NCBI RefSeq assembly: GCF_000214595.1
Contig: NZ_AFIG01000001.1
Span: 310,001-374,000, forward strand
Source of the DNA: Methylophaga thalassica MP
GTDB taxonomy: Bacteria; Pseudomonadota; Gammaproteobacteria; Nitrosococcales; Methylophagaceae
Direction of reading: 5' to 3'
Length of the DNA stretch: 64,000 bases
Positions 2,811 through 60,184 of the stretch are shown here, in pieces. The translations under genes and the position numbers were made by a program. The first letter of the stretch is position 1; every line of letters begins with the position of its first letter. Under the pieces are notes generated by a model that ran no database searches, was not told where the DNA came from, and saw only the letters and a program-made list of their open reading frames with translations.

Positions 2811-3917
2811 TCAGGAACCCGTCCGAACATAACGGCTGCCGGGCAATGACTCAACCACGCCCTCTAGCTCAAGTAATAACAGCATGGATGAAACAGCATC
2901 AGCCGTCAATCCAGTATTTTCTATCAGGCCGTCTATGGCAACTGGGTCAAATCCAAGATGATTAAGCAACACTTGGTAGTCACCGTCTTTTTCATGTGTG
3001 GATTCTGTTTTGTCTTTAGTGTCTTCATGTTGAGTCTTGATTCCTGCCAGCGCACCCAACTCTTCAATAATATCCTGCGCCGTCTCTACCAGCTTTGCCC
3101 CATCCCGGATCAACTGATGACAGCCTCTGGATAAAGGGTTATGAATCGAACCGGGAATAGCAAAAACCTCGCGTGACTGCTCCATTGCCATTCTGGCTGT
3201 GATTAGAGAACCACTTTTTAATGCGGCCTCAACCACCAGGGTTCCTAGCGATAATCCACTGATGATTCGGTTTCTTCTCGGGAATAGCTCTGGTCGTGGT
3301 GAAGTACCTAACGGAAACTCTGACACCATCGCACCGTTTTCTACAATATCGTAGGCTAGTTGACGATGCTGGGCAGGATAAACACGATCAAGACCTGTAG
3401 CAACAACCGCTATTGTTTTCCCCTTGCTCAGGGCGCCCTTATGTGCGGCAGCGTCGATCCCCATTGCAAGCCCACTCGTCACCACTAAACCGCCCTCAGC
3501 CAGGTAGTGAGCAAAGTCATACGCCGTATTTCTGCCTGACGGCGATGGGTTTCGGCTGCCCACAATCGCAAGCTGCCAGTCGTTTAACAATGAAACATCA
3601 CCTTGAACATAGAGTAAACAAGGTGGATCGGTAATTTCTTTGAGTAAACTTGGATAGCGTTCATCTTCAATGGTCAGAATGTAACGGTTATGTTGTTGTT
3701 CCAACCAGAGCAAATCTTGCTCAACTTGTTGCCAGTCGGGATGGCGTAACTTCTCTACCAGTTCATCATTGAAGCCAGTTATTTGGCCTGGGTTATTTAA
3801 TATGTATTGCGGATTGCCATACTGTTGCAAGAGTTTTTGATATGTTACCGGGCCAATCCCTGGCACTCGCTGTAGAGCAATCCAACAAGCTAATTCACTG
3901 TGCTTGTTAGCTATCAT
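2811..3917 (-). CDS. dprA: DNA-processing protein DprA
   Basis: Rossmann-like protein that binds incoming single-stranded DNA and loads RecA during natural transformation (family knowledge). Of its 368 residues the N-terminal part has a helix-hairpin-helix-like segment (VPGIGPVTYQKLL). The central domain shows the hallmark runs LAIVGSRNPSPSGR, TSGLAMGIDAAAH, FPRRNRIISGLS and GSLITARMA. The C-terminal approximately 60 residues form a small winged-helix-like domain (DPVAIDGLIENTGLTADAVSS). It sits between the LysM gene and smg, as in other gammaproteobacteria. Nothing suggests damage. Confidence 0.95.
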   Translation of the reverse strand: MIANKHSELACWIALQRVPGIGPVTYQKLLQQYGNPQYILNNPGQITGFNDELVEKLRHPDWQQVEQDLLWLEQQHNRYILTIEDERYPSLLKEITDPPCLLYVQGDVSLLNDWQLAIVGSRNPSPSGRNTAYDFAHYLAEGGLVVTSGLAMGIDAAAHKGALSKGKTIAVVATGLDRVYPAQHRQLAYDIVENGAMVSEFPLGTSPRPELFPRRNRIISGLSLGTLVVEAALKSGSLITARMAMEQSREVFAIPGSIHNPLSRGCHQLIRDGAKLVETAQDIIEELGALAGIKTQHEDTKDKTESTHEKDGDYQVLLNHLGFDPVAIDGLIENTGLTADAVSSMLLLLELEGVVESLPGSRYVRTGS

Positions 3918-3935: not shown

Positions 3936-4967
3936 TTATTGGGCGCTTTTCACTTTGTCATACACATGCATAGCACGGGTGGCTTTCATAACAATGGCAT
4001 AACTGACTTTGTCGTATAGTTTGAATACCATAGCTTCACCAGCATGTTCATCAGGTAATGTCACCGTGTCCTTGCGATCAACTGACACTGAATCTTTTAA
4101 CGTTTCCCCAGCTTGATAGACTGATAAAACATTTCCTGTTTGCAAGCCATCGCGCTTGCCTAAACTTAGAACAACAATCTGATATTGCCCTATTTGAGAA
4201 ACACCATCAAAAACAGAAATGATGCGTCCATTTAACGGCTTATCAGGGGCACGAGGAATGAAATTAAGATCAAAGTCGTCATCTTCGACTTTTAATAAGC
4301 GATCACCAATTTGAATTTCTCTGTTTGTGTAGGTCAAGCTGACTTTGGCCGGATCCCCCTGAGTCATTGTTTCAGCATCACCCAGATAGATTGCTTCGTA
4401 TCCTAATACTTCGCCAGTGTCAGGATCTTTATATGCTTTGCCACCCTTGAAAAGACTATATGTATTACTATCCGAGTCTGTGATACCCCTTACGTAAACA
4501 TAATCGCCCGCGCCTGAGATAAGACGTTCATCGGCACTGGCAACAACATAAGGTGCATCATTGAGTACTTCATCGCCCACTACGCGAGGTTTGGATAAAA
4601 ATGGGCCAATTGCCGATAGCGGAATAGTCAGGATGGGTTTATCTAAAATCGTTTCTCGAACCTCAGGCGACAGCTTCACACTGCGTTTGCCACGGTTAAC
4701 CTCAATGACTGGTTTGCCATCACGATAACTAAGGGATAATTCATCACCAGGATAGATTAGGTGAGGATTTTCAATTTGCGGATTCACATACCAAATATCA
4801 GGCCAGTGCCACGGATATTTTAAGAACATGCCTGAAATATCCCATAAGGTATCGCCTTTTTTAACCGTATATCGTTGTGGATGGTCTGGATTAAGCTCCA
4901 CTTCTTTGGCCAGCAGAGGGTTACTCAGCAAAACAAAAATCAAACTAATCGCTATGCGCTTTATCAT
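3936..4967 (-). CDS. LysM peptidoglycan-binding protein
   Basis: Exported protein of 343 residues. It begins with a signal peptide (IAISLIFVLLSNPLLA) and is followed by one LysM domain at about residues 32-80 (YTVKKGDTLWDISGMFLKYP). LysM binds N-acetylglucosamine in peptidoglycan, so the product is expected in the periplasm on the wall. The remaining approximately 260 residues are of the uncharacterised type that accompanies LysM in the gene next to dprA in many proteobacteria. It lies just upstream of dprA, separated by 18 bases, and diverges from def. Its precise role is unknown; a wall-remodelling or scaffold function is an inference. Confidence 0.9.
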   Translation of the reverse strand: MIKRIAISLIFVLLSNPLLAKEVELNPDHPQRYTVKKGDTLWDISGMFLKYPWHWPDIWYVNPQIENPHLIYPGDELSLSYRDGKPVIEVNRGKRSVKLSPEVRETILDKPILTIPLSAIGPFLSKPRVVGDEVLNDAPYVVASADERLISGAGDYVYVRGITDSDSNTYSLFKGGKAYKDPDTGEVLGYEAIYLGDAETMTQGDPAKVSLTYTNREIQIGDRLLKVEDDDFDLNFIPRAPDKPLNGRIISVFDGVSQIGQYQIVVLSLGKRDGLQTGNVLSVYQAGETLKDSVSVDRKDTVTLPDEHAGEAMVFKLYDKVSYAIVMKATRAMHVYDKVKSAQ

Positions 4968-5363: not shown

Positions 5364-5867
5364 ATGGCCATTTTAAATATTCTCCATTTCCCCGATCCAC
5401 GGCTGCGCAAAAAAGCTGAGCCCATAGAGGAAGTGACTGATGACATCCGTCAACTTGCCGACGACATGCTAGAAACGATGTATGATGCGCCAGGAATAGG
5501 TCTTGCCGCCAATCAGGTGAATGTACAAAAACGCCTGATAGTTATCGATATTTCTGAAGACAAATCAGAACCACTCATCCTTATCAACCCAGAAATACTT
5601 GATAAGCAAGGTGAACGAGAATATGAAGAAGGCTGCTTATCCGTGCCAGAGGCCTATGAAACCGTTGTGCGTGCTGACACAGTAACAATAAAAGCAGTGA
5701 ACCGAGATGGTGAACCTTTTGAATTTTCTGCCGAAGGACTTCTGGCGACCTGTGTTCAACACGAAATTGATCACCTCGATGGTAAATTATTTGTTGATTA
5801 TCTGAGTAACCTAAAACGCGAACGCATAAAAAAACGCTTAGAAAAACACCAAAAACAAAAACTATAA
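5364..5867 (+). CDS. def: Peptide deformylase
   Basis: Metal-dependent hydrolase that removes the formyl group from the N-terminal methionine of new proteins. The 167-residue protein carries all three family motifs: GIGLAANQV (residues 44-52), EGCLS with the metal-binding Cys91, and HEIDH with metal ligands His133 and His137 and catalytic Glu134. The C-terminal basic tail ([15 protein letters not shown]) is typical. It is the first gene of the plus-strand run and is followed nine bases later by fmt, whose product adds the formyl group that this enzyme removes. Confidence 0.98.
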
Positions 5868-6806: not shown

Positions 6807-8112
6807 GCCTAACCCCACTAAAGGTGCCCGAACGAATGCTGCACTCATTTTGAATGAAGTAGTCGTTCAGCAACGTTCTCTCAATACGGCCTTAGCTCAG
6901 TATTTGCCTCATGTTGATGAAAAAGATCGTGGTTTTTGTCAACAGCTTTGCTATAGCAGTTTGCGTCATTACCCGACTCTGCAATTTATCGTCCACCAGC
7001 TGATAAAAAAACCCTTTAAAGCTAAAGACAAAGATATTGAGCAACTATTAATACTCGGTATTTTACAGTTACGTTTTTTAAATACACCGGATCATGCCGC
7101 CATTTCTGAAACAGTGGATGCCAGTAAAAAACTGAAAAAAGTCTGGGCGGGTGGTTTATTAAATGCCTGCCTGAGAAACTATCTAAGACAACAAGAACAG
7201 ATCGAACAGAAGCTGTTGGCAAATGACCCAGCTAATTACGGGCATCCAAGCTGGTTACTCTCACAATACCAGCAAGACTGGCCTGAAAGCTGGCAAGATA
7301 TTACCAACGCTAATAATAAACAGCCCCCGATGATGCTCCGGGTTAATCAGCAAAAAGTTTCACGTGAAGCATATCTTCAGCAGTTAGAGTCTGAACAGAT
7401 TGCTGCCTCAATTATTGAAGCCACCGACCAGGGTATCTTGCTGGACCAACCTTGCGATGTATATAAACTACCGGGATTTGAAGAAGGTTGGGTTTCTGTG
7501 CAAGACGGCTCAGCCCAACTAGCCACAACGATTCTGAACATAACCCCCGGACAGCGCGTGTTAGATGCCTGTGCTGCGCCCGGCGGTAAGACATGCCATA
7601 TTCTTGAAACCTCTCCTGAAAATGACGTCACAGCTATCGATATATCATCTGATCGCTTACTGCAAATTCAACAAAATACGGATCGGCTTGGTTTACACGC
7701 CACATTAGTTGCTGCCGATGCCGCAGACACCAACCATTGGTGGAACGGACAAGCGTTTGACCGCATCCTTATCGATGCACCCTGCACGGGTAGTGGTGTC
7801 ATTCGCCGCCATCCGGACATAAAACTACTACGTCATCCAGAAGATATCGATACTTTGGCCAGTAAACAACAGGCTTTATTAGATAAATTGTGGCCACTGC
7901 TGAAAGCCGATGGTTTAATGGTTTACACTACCTGCTCTGCCTTTAAAAAAGAAAATGAGCAGCAAATTGAAGCGTTTCTACAACGACATCCAGATGCTGA
8001 AGAAGTCAAACTCTCTTCGACACCAGCGACAGCTAGGCCTTTCGGCTACCAGAGACTGCCTGGTGATGATGTTATGGACGGTTTTTATTATGCCTGCCTT
8101 CGCCGTAAGTAA
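6799..8112 (+). CDS. rsmB: 16S rRNA (cytosine-967-C5)-methyltransferase
   Basis: SAM-dependent enzyme that methylates C967 of 16S rRNA. An N-terminal NusB-like RNA-binding domain covers about residues 5-140. A Rossmann methyltransferase domain follows, with VLDACAAPGGKT for SAM binding. Catalytic cysteines lie in DAPCTGSGVIRRHPD and in TTCSAFKKEN. There is no ATG: the frame opens with TTG codons at 6787 and 6799. I prefer 6799 (TTG GCT AAG) because the product then aligns best with the E. coli N-terminus. The gene overlaps the end of fmt, so it may depend on translational coupling. Start uncertain, function secure. Confidence 0.95.
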   Translation: MAKPNPTKGARTNAALILNEVVVQQRSLNTALAQYLPHVDEKDRGFCQQLCYSSLRHYPTLQFIVHQLIKKPFKAKDKDIEQLLILGILQLRFLNTPDHAAISETVDASKKLKKVWAGGLLNACLRNYLRQQEQIEQKLLANDPANYGHPSWLLSQYQQDWPESWQDITNANNKQPPMMLRVNQQKVSREAYLQQLESEQIAASIIEATDQGILLDQPCDVYKLPGFEEGWVSVQDGSAQLATTILNITPGQRVLDACAAPGGKTCHILETSPENDVTAIDISSDRLLQIQQNTDRLGLHATLVAADAADTNHWWNGQAFDRILIDAPCTGSGVIRRHPDIKLLRHPEDIDTLASKQQALLDKLWPLLKADGLMVYTTCSAFKKENEQQIEAFLQRHPDAEEVKLSSTPATARPFGYQRLPGDDVMDGFYYACLRRK

Positions 8113-30131: not shown

Positions 30132-33100
30132 ATGCTTGAAGCCCCCATCAGAAACGGAAAGCTACTTACGGTTATCGTTCTTATCATTATGGTACTGGGC
30201 ATTGCCGCAGCAAAACGTATTCCAGTCCAGATGATTCCTGATCTCGATGTGCAAACCATCAGCGTGGTTACCGGCTGGCCAGGAGCAACACCACAGGATA
30301 TTGAAAAAGAAATCCTCATCGAACAAGAACGCTATCTGCGCAGTGTGCCGAATCTGGCTAGAATGGAATCACTGGCAGATACTGGCCAGGCTACAATCGA
30401 GCTGGAATTTCCGTTTGGGGTTGATGTGAATGAAACTCTTATAGAAGTTTCTAACGCACTCAGCCAGGTCTCCAATTACCCAGAAAATGTCGATCAACCG
30501 CGGCTATATAGCAGTTCTTTCTCAGAAAATGCCTTTATGTATTTTGCTGTTACCCCGCTGCCCGGAAATCCACTGAGCCTTGATATGGATATGGTCACTG
30601 ATTTCATCGATGATGATGTCAGACCTCGTATGGAAAGGGTTCCTGGAGTATCTGAAGTTCAACTTCGTGGTGGTGCTGAAAGACAAATACAAATCCATAT
30701 AGATCCCGCCAAACTCGCACAACGAGGTCTGTCCTTAACTGATGTCAGAGACGCCATTCGTGAACGTAACAGAGATACCTCCGCCGGCGATCTTGACGAT
30801 GGTAAGCGCCGTTACTTTATCCGGACCGTAGGACGTTTCAAAGATGTTGAAAGCCTTCGAGAATTGACTCTGGCTCATCGCAATAATACGGATATCAAAC
30901 TCAAAGACGTGGCAGAAGTCAGGCTGGATCACTATGAAGTGCGAGGTTTATCGATAGTCAATGATGAAGCGGCACTGACCATGGCCGTTAAGCGAGAAAC
31001 AGGCTCAAATGTCATTGATATCAAACAGGCCATGCTGAAAGAAATTGATGAAATCCGCCAGGATCAACTTCATCCTAACGGTTTAACTATTTCCCTAATA
31101 GGTGATGACGTTCGTTATGTTCAAGCCTCTGTAGAAAAAGTCACGCAGAACCTGGCTCTGGGTGCCATTCTTGCGACACTTATTCTGTATTTATTCTTAC
31201 GTTCAGGCAGAGCCACCGTTATCGGCCTACTCGGCATGCCGGTATGCACGATTGCAGCCTTTATCGGTTTACTCGCCTTTGATCGCACGATCAATGTGAT
31301 CTCTCTGGCAGGGATTGCTTTTGCCATTGGTATGACCGTGGATAACACCATTGTGGTCCTGGAAAGTATTGAACAGGCACGTCGACGTGGATTAGATCGG
31401 ATCCAAGCGGCCATTACTGGCGTAAAAGAAGTCTGGACTGCAGTACTGGCTTCCAGTATGACCACGGTATTAGTGTTTGCTCCGGTGTTATTTGTTGATG
31501 AAGAAGCGGGTCAACTTTATTCAGATATTGCGATTGCGATATCTACAGCTATTTTAGCCTCTATGCTATTTGCTGTTGCCGTGGTACCGGCTGCCTGTGC
31601 CCGGGTTGGGTTTGGTGATGATCGTGATCATGGTGATGATTTAAAGCACCCTGGCCCGATTTTAAAAATGGTCAGCTGGCTCAATACCTCACCTTTAAAA
31701 CGCTTACTTTCCATTGTGATTATTTTTACCAGCACCATGGGCGCTGGCTGGTATCTGCTACCACCAGCTGAGTATTTACCGGAAGGTGAAGAACCCAAAG
31801 CCTTCAGTATGATGATTGCTCCGCCCGGCTATAACATACCTGAGATGCGTTTATTGGCAGATGATATCCGCCAGCATTTAAGTGAAGCCTTGCATGCCGA
31901 TCCACAAAAGTTTGATAACGGTGAACACCGCTTACCTGCACTGAAATATTATTTTCAGCGGATTAATCCAGGTTCGATATGGATTCTGAGTGAACCTGTT
32001 CGTCCACAAGATTTACAGGCGATGATGGATGCACTCACGTCGATGTTTAAAGAATATCCAGGAATGCGTGGTTTCTCGAACCGGGGTTCGATTATTTCCA
32101 GCAATCAGGGAGGCACACGCGCTGTTAATCTCGATATTTCCGGCGCCGATCAGGAAAGCCTCTACAGCACGGCTGAATACGCAATGAGACGTGCTGAAAA
32201 GCTATTTGGCAATCCGCAGATCGAGTCTGAACCTTCAGCACTGTCTCTCGATCAACCCTTAGTTGAAATTCGTCCGAACTGGGATCGACTAGCCGAGATT
32301 GATATGTCTGCAGATGATTTTGGTTACACGGTAGCAGCGCTGAGTGATGGCGCTTATGTCGATGAGTTTTTTATGAATGATGACAAAATTGATATGTTCA
32401 TCTTTAGCACCGCCGGACAAAACCAAACCCTGTCGTCACTGGCTAATGTGCCTATCATGACGCCACAAGGCACGGTTTTACCCTTAAATGCGCTGGCCAA
32501 TATTGTTGATACGGTAGACAGTGATCAATTACGACGTGTGAATGGTCGTCGTACCGTCACCTTACTGATTATTCCGCCACGAGAAATTGCACTGGAAACA
32601 GCGGTGAACCAGGTTCGTACTCAAATGCTGCCAAATATGCAGGCTGAGGGGGAAGTAGCTAAAGGGGTTTCTATCAGTATTTCGGGTGCGGCTGATCAGT
32701 TAGATGCTACCCGTGAATCCTTATCAGGCAACCTTGTCATTGCGTTAATTCTTATTTATTTGCTGCTGGTCGCTATCTTTAGTCACTGGTGGTATCCACT
32801 ACTCATTCTTGCGACCGTGCCCTTAGGTATTGCTGGAGGTATTGTCGGCTTAGCGGCAGTCAATGCCGCCGGGCCTTTACTCAACCTGTTTGGTCTTCCA
32901 GCGATTATTCAACCATTCGATATGATTACCATGCTTGGTTTTGTCATTTTGCTGGGTACTGTCGTCAACAACCCTATTCTGATTGTTGAACAGGCACGAA
33001 GGAATTTGGAAGATAAAGCAGTATCCGTGCGTGATGCGGTCAATCAGGCGGTTGCCACTCGCTTGCGTCCAATCTTGATGTCAACCGCCACTACCGTGTT

Positions 33101-48594: not shown

Positions 48595-50352
48595 TTACAT
48601 AGACTCAGGCGCAGAAACACCCATAACAGACAATGCATTTTTAATCACTTGTCTGACTGCAGATACAAGTAATAAACGAGCCTGACTCAATTCCATATCA
48701 TCCACAATAAACTGATGTGCATTGTAGTAAGTGTGGAAATCACGAGCTAAATCAGTAAGATAATGTGCCAGTAGATGTGGTGTATGGTTTAACGCGGCTG
48801 TTTCCAGAATCTCAGGATAACGCGATAACATGCTCATCAGAGCTTCTTCATGAGGCTCAGTCAACTTAGCTAAATGTTGTTTTGCCGCTTCTGCATCCCA
48901 GTTGTGTCCACGTTCAGCCAGTTGTCTAAAAACACTGCAGACACGTGCATGGGCATACTGGACGTAATACACCGGATTATCGTTGCTCTGTGATTTGGCC
49001 AGTTCCAGATCAAAATCCATATGCTGATCAGCACCACGCATTACATAAAAGAAACGCGCTGCATCTTTGCCAACTTCATTGCGTAATTCACGAAGAGTGA
49101 CAAACTCACCACTACGAGTAGACATACCCACTTTTTCAGTTCCCCGGTACAGCACAGCAAATTGCACCAGCAAGACATTTAATTTATCAGCATCAAGCTG
49201 CATTGACTCCACAGCCGCTTTAACACGCGGGATATAACCATGATGATCAGCACCCCAGATATCAATGATGCGATCAAAGCCACGTTGATATTTATTGAGG
49301 TGATAAGCAATATCAGAAGCAAAATAGGTGGCCTGACCATTATCACGCACAACAACGCGATCTTTTTCATCACCAAAATCTGTGGATTTAAACCACCATG
49401 CACCTTTGTCCTGGTAGAGATGACCAGCTTGTTTCAGCATTTCAACAGCTTTATTTACATCACCGGATTCAACTAATGAACGCTCAGAAAACCATTCATC
49501 ATATTCGGTACCAAACTCAGCCAGATCATCACGAATGTCATTGAGGATGGCATTTAAGCCTTTATCAAAAACAATCCGATAATTGGCTTCGCCTAATAAG
49601 CTTTTGGCTTTATTGGTTAAAGCATCAATGTGCATTTCTTTATCGCCGCCATCAGGTTCATCAGCAGGGATATCCTCAAAAACTTGACTGGCAGACAGCA
49701 AAAATTGATTTCCATACTCCGTTTTTAACTCTGCGGCGATGGTGCGAACATATTCACCTTGATAGCCATTACTTGGGAAGGTAAACACTTCACCACATTC
49801 ATCCAGGTAACGAAGCCAGACACTAGTAGCCAGAATATCCATCTGGCGGCCAGCATCGTTGACATAATATTCACGATGCACATCAAAGCCAGCGGCAGAT
49901 AACAGACTGCTAACAACAGAACCATAAGCTGCACCACGCCCATGACCGACATGCAAAGGACCTGTAGGGTTAGCTGAGACATATTCAACTTGTACTTTTT
50001 TACCCTGACCTACCTGGCTTAATCCGAACTTTTCACCCAGCTCAAGCACATCTTTGATGACTTGTTGATTCGCTTCAGCAGAAAGGAAAAAATTAATAAA
50101 TCCAGGTCCGGCAATTTCGACGTTTGTGACAAAATCGGTTTCAGGTAATGCTTCGAGAATTTCGGTCGCAATTTGTCGTGGATTCATTTTGGCTGGTTTT
50201 GCCAACATCATCGCAATATTTGAAGCAAAATCACCATGAGATTTATCTTTAGTTCGTTCTATCTGAATCTCAGGTAGATCAAACTCTAAAGCATGTTTTT
50301 GAGTAAATGAAGATAAAGCCTGACCAAGCAGGTTTTTCAGTTGATTTTTCAA
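48595..50352 (-). CDS. argS: Arginyl-tRNA synthetase
   Basis: Class I synthetase of 585 residues. It has the HIGH-type motif [11 protein letters not shown] after [10 protein letters not shown], the KMSKS-equivalent [10 protein letters not shown], and the C-terminal anticodon-binding DALR domain ([16 protein letters not shown]). Length fits E. coli ArgS (577). It lies between priA and the SPOR gene, on the same strand, with a 105-base gap upstream. Confidence 0.97.
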
Positions 50353-50457: not shown

Positions 50458-52641
50458 TTACAAAAGATCGACTGGATCAATATCAATTGACCAACGTACT
50501 TTTCTTGCCAGTTTATGCCGTGAAATCACACTGATATGTCGATCCAATAACTGATGTAAGGGTTTTCGATGTGCGCTACTCAATAATAATTGTGCTCTGA
50601 ACCGCCCTCCCTTTTTTTCCATAATCGCTGGAACCGGTCCCAAAATCAGAACATCCTCTGACGCATGTTGATGACATTGTGCGCTGAACTCTTGTAAAAA
50701 CGCTGTTGCTTGTTCTCTATCAGAAGATTCAGCGCGGATAACCGCCCAATTCGAAACCGGCGGTAATTCCATATCAATACGTTCTTCCAACAAGCTTTCT
50801 GCTGTTTTCTTATAGCCTTTTTTGATGAAGTTTTTCCAGAAAATATGCGCAGGTTGTTCTGTCTGAATTAATACCTCGCCTGACTTATCTCCTCGCCCGG
50901 CTCTACCTGTGACCTGGGTAATCATTTGTGCCAGATTTTCTGTGGCTCTGAAATCAGCACTATACAATCCCTGATCAGTATCGAGAACACCGACGAGAGT
51001 AACATCATGAAAATCATGACCTTTTGCCAGTATTTGTGTTCCCACCAGAATTCGGGCTTCCCCTTGTTTAATATCAGCAATCAGATCTGAAAAAGCGTTC
51101 ACTCTCTGGGTAGTATCTCGATCCACTCTAATAACCGGTGTTTCAGGAAAAAGTTTTTGCAAGTGCTGTTCAATTTTTTCCGTGCCAGCACCATAACTTT
51201 TCAATGACTTTGATTCACATTCAGGACATTCTTCAACTAATCGCTGAATAAAACCACAATGATGACAAAACAAAATATTGCGATGCTGATGAACCACCAT
51301 TCTTGCATCACAATGTTTACATTTAGCCTGCCAGCCACAGTCATGACACATCAAAACGGGGGCATAACCACGTCGGTTGATAAACAAAATAATCTGATTA
51401 CCCGCATCCAGATGTTTTTTGATTGCTTTGAGTAAGACATCGCTAAAGCCATGCTCAGGATTTGCTTGACTGTTATCGACTAAACGTACCGGTGGTAATT
51501 GAGCATTACCTGCTCTTTGTGTTAATTCAAGCAATTGAAAACGTTGTTTTTTTACTTGGTACAAGCTCTCTAGTGACGGTGTCGCACTGCCCATGACGAT
51601 CGGTATATTGTATTTTTGAGCTCTAATCAGAGCGACATTTCTTGCATGATAACGTAAGCCATCTTGCTGTTTATAGGAACTGTCATGCTCTTCATCGATG
51701 ATGATAAGTCCTGGGTTAATCAATGGGGTGAAAACGGCTGAGCGTGTACCGATAATCACATTTGCTAAACCTTGTTTTGCTAATAACCAGGCTTGTTTTC
51801 TTTCTTTATCTGAAACGGCTGAGTTCAGGATGACTATGGTCGTGTTCAGTCTTTTTTTAAATCGTTCAACAAACTGTCCTGTCAGACCAATTTCTGGAAT
51901 AAGTATTAATACTTGTTTATTGGTTTTTAACACTCTTTCGGTTAGCTCAATATAAACTTCTGTTTTACCGCTACCAGTTATTCCTTCCAATAAAAAGGGC
52001 TGAAATTCTTCTTTTTTTTGCCAAACGTTTTCTACAATCTGTTGTTGTTGCTGATTCAGTATTAAATCAACATTCAGTTCATTACTTGGAATGGGTAATT
52101 TTGCTTTTTGTTGTTGTGATATCAAGCCTGCTGTTTCAAGCGCTTTGAGAGAACTGCTGACATTCCCTAAATACTGTTTAAACATCGACTGGCTGATACC
52201 GTCAGCATAATCTTCTAGCAAATCCAGACACTGCTGCTGTTTTGAACCCATTTTTTTATCGACAGTTATGTCTGTTCTGAACCACCACGTTTCTTTATCA
52301 AGTTCTGCTGGTTTTCCTGTTCTGAGTAATTTGGGCAAAGCTGTCTGAAAACATTCGCCAAGAGGATGGTGATAATACCGACTTACCCAAAGTAATGTTT
52401 GCATTAATTCATCTGGAATTAATTTTTTGTCATCTAACTTTTCTTCGATCGCTTTTAACTTAGTGATATCTGTATCGCTTTTAACTTCACTCAGTTTTAC
52501 AACAATGCCAGTGCAGAGTCGGTTGGCAAAGTTTATTTTTACCCGAGCACCTATTTCCCATTCGGAGATAGGTAAATCTGAGGTGTAATCAAACAATTGT
52601 CTGAGAGGACACGGTACGCTAATGTGAAGTATGCAAGTCAT
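50458..52641 (-). CDS. priA: Primosomal replication protein N' (PriA helicase)
   Basis: Superfamily 2 DNA helicase that restarts stalled replication forks. The 727 residues show Walker A GITGSGKTEVY, the DEAH-type box IIIDEEHDSSYKQQDG, the late motif MITQVTGRAGRGDKSGEV, and a cluster of zinc-binding cysteines (CHDCGWQAKCKHCDA and CHHCGFIQRLVEECPEC). The N-terminal 3'-DNA-binding domain is present. It diverges from folA across a DnaA-box-rich region. Confidence 0.96.
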   Translation of the reverse strand: MTCILHISVPCPLRQLFDYTSDLPISEWEIGARVKINFANRLCTGIVVKLSEVKSDTDITKLKAIEEKLDDKKLIPDELMQTLLWVSRYYHHPLGECFQTALPKLLRTGKPAELDKETWWFRTDITVDKKMGSKQQQCLDLLEDYADGISQSMFKQYLGNVSSSLKALETAGLISQQQKAKLPIPSNELNVDLILNQQQQQIVENVWQKKEEFQPFLLEGITGSGKTEVYIELTERVLKTNKQVLILIPEIGLTGQFVERFKKRLNTTIVILNSAVSDKERKQAWLLAKQGLANVIIGTRSAVFTPLINPGLIIIDEEHDSSYKQQDGLRYHARNVALIRAQKYNIPIVMGSATPSLESLYQVKKQRFQLLELTQRAGNAQLPPVRLVDNSQANPEHGFSDVLLKAIKKHLDAGNQIILFINRRGYAPVLMCHDCGWQAKCKHCDARMVVHQHRNILFCHHCGFIQRLVEECPECESKSLKSYGAGTEKIEQHLQKLFPETPVIRVDRDTTQRVNAFSDLIADIKQGEARILVGTQILAKGHDFHDVTLVGVLDTDQGLYSADFRATENLAQMITQVTGRAGRGDKSGEVLIQTEQPAHIFWKNFIKKGYKKTAESLLEERIDMELPPVSNWAVIRAESSDREQATAFLQEFSAQCHQHASEDVLILGPVPAIMEKKGGRFRAQLLLSSAHRKPLHQLLDRHISVISRHKLARKVRWSIDIDPVDLL

Positions 52642-52758
52642 TAATTAAACATAAAGAAAGAAAGATATTTTTTTAGTGATGTTAATGATTTATGCCTGTG
52701 GATTGTTGGATAGTTCTTATTACAACATATAAATCAGATTGTTATCGATGTTTACACA

Positions 52759-52865
52759 TGTTGATAACTTTAAAGCTGCGCAGACTAAATCCTGTGGATA
52801 AAAACAGGAGTTATCCACAGGGAAAGTTATCCACAGCTTGTGATCGATCTTATAGGGATCTTATA
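52759..52865. other. DnaA-box cluster, candidate oriC or DnaA titration site
   Basis: Within the 286-base priA/folA gap there are three perfect DnaA boxes TTATCCACA: minus at 52793-52801, plus at 52811-52819 and plus at 52827-52835. A one-mismatch box (TTATCAACA, minus) is at 52759-52767. Immediately beside them lie two GATCTTATA 9-mers at 52846-52854 and 52857-52865, one helical turn apart, and AT-rich DNA on both sides. The set is what one expects of an origin or of a DnaA-controlled promoter. Which of the two cannot be settled here. Confidence 0.6.
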
Positions 52866-52927
52866 CAGCACTTATTATGAGTAAAATTTACGCCTGTTAT
52901 TAGGTTAAAAATGTGTTTGGAGAATGA

Positions 52928-53425
52928 ATGAAAATAGCAATGATTGTGGCGATGGATGAACAAGGTGTGATTGGCAAAGACAATGATTTGCCATGGAAAA
53001 TCTCTGCCGATTTACAGTTTTTTAAACGAACTACCATGGGTAAGCCCATTATCATGGGAAGAAACACGCATGAATCAATTGGTAGACCACTACCGGGTCG
53101 AAGAAACGTCGTTGTGACGTCACAAGATGATTATATTGCTGACGGTTGTGATGTTGTTCATTCATTGGAGCAGGCATTTTCTTTGTGTGAAAATGCTGAA
53201 GAAGTGATGATTATGGGAGGAGCATCGCTCTATAAACAATGTTTTCCACTATCTGACAAACTCTATATCACACAAGTCCACACCACCATTGATGGTGGTG
53301 ATACCTGGTTTCCTGACTGGGATCGTTCTGATTGGAAACTGGTGAGTTCAGAAGACCATAAAGCCGATGAAAAGAATCAGTATGATTATAGCTTTATGCT
53401 ATTTCAGAAGATTCAGAACAGATGA
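52928..53425 (+). CDS. folA: Dihydrofolate reductase
   Basis: NADPH-dependent reductase of dihydrofolate, 165 residues. Motifs: AMDEQGVIGKDNDLPWKISADLQFF with the acidic substrate-binding Asp28, MGRNTHESIGRPLPGRRNVV, and the NADPH loop IMGGASLYKQCFP. Length and sequence fit chromosomal FolA rather than plasmid types. It diverges from priA and its end overlaps a convergent TIGR02647-type gene by 32 bases. Confidence 0.97.
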   Translation: MKIAMIVAMDEQGVIGKDNDLPWKISADLQFFKRTTMGKPIIMGRNTHESIGRPLPGRRNVVVTSQDDYIADGCDVVHSLEQAFSLCENAEEVMIMGGASLYKQCFPLSDKLYITQVHTTIDGGDTWFPDWDRSDWKLVSSEDHKADEKNQYDYSFMLFQKIQNR

Positions 53426-59434: not shown

Positions 59435-60184
59435 ATGACCCAGTTAGGCAACGTTACCCCACTATTTCAGGACCTCGCTAAAGTCGAACATGAACATAAT
59501 CTCGCTTGTCAGGAGTGTTCACTTTATCGTTTATGTTTGCCACTTGGTTTACACAATAACGACTTGATTCAATTAGATAAAATCATCAAGCGCAGTCAGA
59601 GTTATTCCCGAGGTCAGCCACTGTTTAGTACCCAGACACCGTTCAATTCTATCTATGTTGTTCGTTCTGGTTCCTTTAAAACAACGGTTTCTGCGGTTGA
59701 CGGTCGCGAGCAAGTAACCGGATTTTATTTTCCCGGTGAGTTTGTGGGTCTGGATGCTATCTATGAACAGGCTTATCGTTCTAACGCAAAAGCATTAGAA
59801 AGCAGTAGTGTGTGTGAATTACCTTTCGATATGTTGCAAGAGTTGGGCACCAATATGCCTCAACTTCAAGTACAGATGATGTCACGTTTGAGTAAAGAAT
59901 TGTCTGGCGATAAAAGTCTGATGTTTTTATTAGGCAAAAAAACGGCTGAAGAAAAACTGGCGACATTTTTATTATCTATTTCGCGTCGTTTCCAGGATCG
60001 TGGCTTTTCTGCACGTGAATTTCAGCTCAGTATGTCACGTGGTGATATCGCTAATCATTTGGGTCTGGCTGTTGAAACCGTCAGTCGGCTTTTTTCGCGC
60101 TTTCAGGATGAAGGCTTGATCGATATTCAAAACAAATCTATTTCTTTGCGTGACACTGAAAAATTAAAAACATTATGTGGGTAA
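59435..60184 (+). CDS. fnr: FNR-type oxygen-sensing transcription regulator
   Basis: Crp/Fnr family regulator of 249 residues with the iron-sulfur ligands of FNR: Cys25, Cys28 and Cys34 in LACQECSLYRLCLPLG, and Cys127 in SSVCELPFD. The cAMP-like domain follows. The helix-turn-helix MSRGDIANHLGLAVETVSRLFSRFQDEGLI contains the E-SR residues that read TTGAT. It should be active without oxygen. An FNR box lies directly downstream, before ompW. Confidence 0.95.
   Translation: MTQLGNVTPLFQDLAKVEHEHNLACQECSLYRLCLPLGLHNNDLIQLDKIIKRSQSYSRGQPLFSTQTPFNSIYVVRSGSFKTTVSAVDGREQVTGFYFPGEFVGLDAIYEQAYRSNAKALESSSVCELPFDMLQELGTNMPQLQVQMMSRLSKELSGDKSLMFLLGKKTAEEKLATFLLSISRRFQDRGFSAREFQLSMSRGDIANHLGLAVETVSRLFSRFQDEGLIDIQNKSISLRDTEKLKTLCG

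Follow-up and report, generated by a model that had tools for sequence, protein, structure and literature searches.

DnaA boxes cluster in the gap between priA and folA

The window, a 64-kb stretch of DNA covering positions C3:310001-374000 of a 3.26-Mb Methylophaga assembly in three contigs, contains a 286-bp intergenic gap (52642-52927) that is bounded by the start codons of two genes: priA on the minus strand (50458-52641; NCBIfam NF004067, primosomal protein N') and folA on the plus strand (52928-53425; NF008037, type 3 dihydrofolate reductase). Three perfect DnaA boxes with the sequence TTATCCACA lie in this gap, one on the minus strand (52793-52801) and two on the plus strand (52811-52819 and 52827-52835, the latter 16 bp past the box at 52811), together with a near match, TGTTGATAA, that carries one mismatch (52759-52767, minus strand). 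All four fall within 77 bp, and a sequence-only reading of the window, which had reported three perfect boxes and one near match here, is confirmed at these coordinates. An additional sequence on the minus strand, TGTGGATTG (52697-52705), has two mismatches and is a possible weak DnaA site. Among known origins, four strong boxes stand near the low end.

We assessed the cluster against 20,000 random sequences drawn with the gap's own dinucleotide transitions, of which 0.6% contained one perfect box and none contained two or more. Over the 64-kb window as a whole, TTATNCACA matches number 6 against 3.6 expected, i.e., there is no enrichment, and the unusual feature is the clustering of the boxes rather than their number in the window. 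A search against Rfam returned no match.

The box module is conserved upstream of priA in Methylophagaceae

To characterize the distribution of the module, we searched 58 genomes with the pair pattern TTATCCACA-N7-TTATCCACA, allowing up to three mismatches. The box pair was found at this fixed spacing in 30 of them, all Methylophagaceae and nearly always as a single copy, and in no searched genome outside the family. Further-diverged modules lie upstream of folA/priA in G012, G019 and G024, and in the reduced genome G023 the 14 kb surrounding folA contain neither priA nor a box cluster. Conservation of the boxes, which had been proposed as a check on the candidate, was found in close and distant relatives alike. 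The pair pattern was also matched on a Clostridium mediterraneense contig (L154:1386-1812), as part of a dense array of some 16 boxes that is presumably that species' own origin.

Wherever the examined stretch of a family member includes priA, the module is found divergently upstream of this gene's start, and priA is its constant neighbour. The other flank is less stable: folA adjoins the module in many relatives, not in all, and is displaced from it by another gene in several species. In L081, L077, L079 and similar loci, a gene that by eye resembles a Na/phosphate cotransporter stands between the module and folA. Since the position upstream of priA is kept while folA is displaced in several species, the module travels with priA and not with folA. 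A comparison with plasmids yielded distant dfr genes only.

Aligning 43 modules without gaps on the box pair at 52811 and 52827 revealed that the layout is kept while the flanks drift. The two anchor boxes are present in 43/43 modules by construction; a box with at most one mismatch occurs at the position of the 52793 box in 41/43 and at the offset of the near match at 52759 in 27/43, and the ctgtg core of the possible weak site at 52697-52705 is kept in the 43 modules. Second copies were also observed. In L146 (boxes 1494-1624 and 3942-4064), L156 (boxes 3029-3151 and 5609-5738) and L147 (boxes 4803-4932 and 7419-7548), the module occurs again across priA in the same orientation, placing priA between two DnaA-box clusters in an arrangement like a bipartite origin. 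G028 carries a partial second box group (L236:6834-7209) on the module's side of priA, separated from the main copy by about 320 bp.

Next to the plus-strand boxes, a TTAT motif array (52842-52875, plus strand) includes a tandem repeat, GATCTTATA, at 52846 and 52857, 11 bp apart, with TTAT at 52850, 52861 and 52872. The array has the same orientation as the plus-strand boxes and a period of 11 bp, one helical turn. These three TTAT positions are kept in 36/43, 25/43 and 27/43 modules, respectively, compared with at most 6 in shuffled modules. GATC is kept at 52842 in 26/43 modules, and GATC as the functional unit of the repeats was ruled out, as the GATC at 52857 is not conserved. Of the tandem 9-mers beginning with GATC described in the sequence-only reading, the repeats and their 11-bp spacing are thus real, and the conserved unit is TTAT, not GATC. 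The TTAT row fits a series of half-box motifs, candidate weak DnaA sites along which an oligomer could grow, an interpretation modelled on the weak sites that lie close together in E. coli.

The gap is AT-rich, as had been noted for its flanks, with 69% AT overall and 84% across its left end (52642-52690). This left stretch, which is unstable here and AT-rich family-wide (its positions average 73-88% AT over the 43 modules), is the first candidate for an unwinding element; the 40-bp segment at 52652-52691 is exceeded in instability by just 0.1% of such segments in the window. A second and weaker candidate is the AT-rich right flank (52876-52927), which is less unstable and is poorly conserved: the least stable 40 bp in the right part of the gap begin at 52850, with a corresponding fraction of 0.3%, and beyond 52880 the modules share little.

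The module lies at the skew switch, and no rival box cluster was found

We measured GC skew chromosome-wide on sampled stretches and scanned a contiguous 200-kb region surrounding the gap for cumulative minima. Along contig C3, the sampled skew stays negative until the window is reached, is positive between 374 kb and about 1.25 Mb and is negative thereafter, and the negative-to-positive switch at the gap is the only one seen in C3 in these stretches. Within the contiguous 200 kb, cumulative GC skew reaches its minimum at window position 59685 (7 kb from the boxes) and keto skew at 50104 (3 kb away); for four-fold sites the lowest point is at 32429, about 20 kb from the boxes. The genes between the boxes and the GC minimum are mainly on the minus strand, a bias that may shift the GC minimum. 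In the single-contig congeners G022, G007 and G010, the distances between the module and the local cumulative minimum are 12.5, 9.0 and 1.7 kb, respectively, and in all three the sampled chromosome skew flips sign at the module. The skew minimum, suggested earlier as a test of the candidate, therefore falls in the region of the gap in the window's own genome and in three relatives. Because the minima lie 2-12 kb off the module, and the four-fold-site minimum about 20 kb off, skew by itself does not place the origin more finely than some 20 kb.

The position of the terminus was assessed through dif-like sites. These lie nearly opposite the module in G022, where the two arms measure 1.52 and 1.59 Mb, and in G007 (1.68 and 1.45 Mb). 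In our own assembly (G000), dif is 828 kb from the module on one arm, far from opposite. Comparison of its contigs C3 and C1 with G022 shows an off-centre inversion around the terminus, the end of C3 matching G022 at 0.96 Mb and C1 running from 2.2 to 1.8 Mb; this inversion reflects either a genuinely unbalanced chromosome or a misassembly.

Genome-wide, 49 perfect boxes form a single tight group, which is the one in the priA-folA gap, and no comparable group was found in a scan of about 1 Mb that took in the gap's 200-kb neighbourhood as well as the surroundings of dnaA and mnmG. The rival DnaA-box cluster elsewhere that the sequence-only reading had allowed for was not found, including around dnaA and mnmG. 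The dnaA gene lies at C3:149525, 213 kb from the gap, and mnmG at C3:294789, 68 kb away. We rejected an origin at either gene, as neither has a box cluster and the skew is negative on both sides of each. The surroundings of dnaA lack a DnaA-box cluster in four Methylophaga genomes, namely our own, G007, G010 and G022. Separately, G000:C3:1519635-1520010 holds three perfect boxes on a single strand at intervals of 183-184 bp, perhaps a repeat inside a gene.

The gap as the probable replication origin

These observations indicate that the priA-folA gap is very probably oriC, the site at which this Methylophaga starts to replicate its chromosome, an identity that had been put forward as a candidate and is now supported by the skew minimum, the absence of a rival cluster and conservation in relatives.

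DnaA is a known transcription factor in other systems, and the boxes could in principle belong to a promoter region through which DnaA controls priA (and folA), with the true origin within some 20 kb. The constant position of the module just upstream of priA and a skew minimum that is not exactly on the module would both suit such a site, but we consider this reading very unlikely: the contiguous 200 kb holds no other DnaA-box cluster, and a regulatory site would need neither the conserved phased arrays nor a place at the skew minimum in four genomes. A simple scan also found no sigma-70-like promoter in the gap, which is weak evidence. DnaA control of priA may be an additional role beside origin function.

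The gap might instead be a titration site resembling datA, drawing DnaA off from an origin located far away, an alternative raised in the sequence-only reading to which the strong boxes clustered in an intergenic gap 213 kb from dnaA lend some appeal. This is disfavoured, and in our view extremely improbable, as four genomes have the cluster at the skew minimum and no second cluster was found that could serve as the origin. A chance cluster in an AT-rich gap is compatible with a window box count that is about as expected, but has a negligible probability given that two perfect boxes arose in none of the random sequences of like composition and that the layout is conserved across the family.

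Taking the gap as the origin, we go beyond the computed features (a unique box cluster at the skew switch, conserved in position and layout) and infer its mode of action from the way DnaA generally works at oriC. DnaA would occupy the strong boxes, those at 52759 and 52793 facing leftward and those at 52811 and 52827 facing rightward, and its oligomer would then grow along the rightward, 11-bp-phased TTAT array. Strain from this complex would open adjoining AT-rich DNA, most likely at 52642-52690. Helicase loading would take place there and, upon firing, two forks would depart in opposite directions.

Comparison with known origins

The Methylophaga module resembles E. coli oriC, which lies between mnmG/gidA and mioC, in being a single continuous intergenic region of about 250-290 bp, in carrying TTATCCACA boxes in both orientations, an AT-rich flank and closely spaced weak sites, and in its location away from dnaA. 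It differs in its neighbours, priA and folA, with mnmG 68 kb away, and by eye it has no recognisable E. coli 13-mers. It also has few GATC sites; since there are only three in the gap, E. coli-type sequestration is unlikely at the Methylophaga origin. SeqA was not found in five family genomes in a search that detected the E. coli control.

The predicted origin of Francisella likewise has four boxes, and priA is among its nearby marker genes; unlike in Methylophaga, dnaA is near as well, and the sequence is reported to be unique to Francisella (PMC5859110). In general, oriC usually adjoins dnaA, yet its location varies, E. coli being one example (PMC4285127, PMC10225481). Our literature search, outside which lay subscription papers and the DoriC tables, found no oriC description for Methylophaga or upstream of priA, and a database prediction may exist. 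The Methylophaga oriC is thus of an ordinary kind, with ordinary parts in an unusual location; the earlier remark that this place would be unusual for a gammaproteobacterial origin holds, as the module adjoins priA and lies away from both dnaA and mnmG.

A proposed origin relocation within the order

In the sister family (G035 and G037-G040), a dense box array with 11-12 bp spacing follows closely on the AAA+ domain of dnaA, at the position expected for the dnaA-dnaN junction, the gene borders being approximate. This dnaA-side array is a putative origin. It shares with the Methylophaga module the box sequence, the 11-12 bp spacing and an organization in two facing half-arrays, and differs from it in standing beside dnaA and in having many more boxes, of one-mismatch quality. 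Since such an array is present at dnaA in the sister family and none is found at dnaA in Methylophaga, the most parsimonious account places a shift of the origin from dnaA to priA at the root of Methylophagaceae or close to it. A fuller scenario, which we offer only tentatively, is that a single ancestral move from dnaA to priA was kept, that some members have a bipartite origin with priA as its spacer, and that DnaA bound at the origin may set priA expression.

The analysis locates the replication origin for a family of marine methylotrophs in which the origin has left dnaA for priA. In the four genomes analysed, annotating the origin by way of dnaA would displace it by 123-217 kb. With Methylophagaceae and their sister family belonging to the same order, the two offer a natural comparison for how origins relocate.
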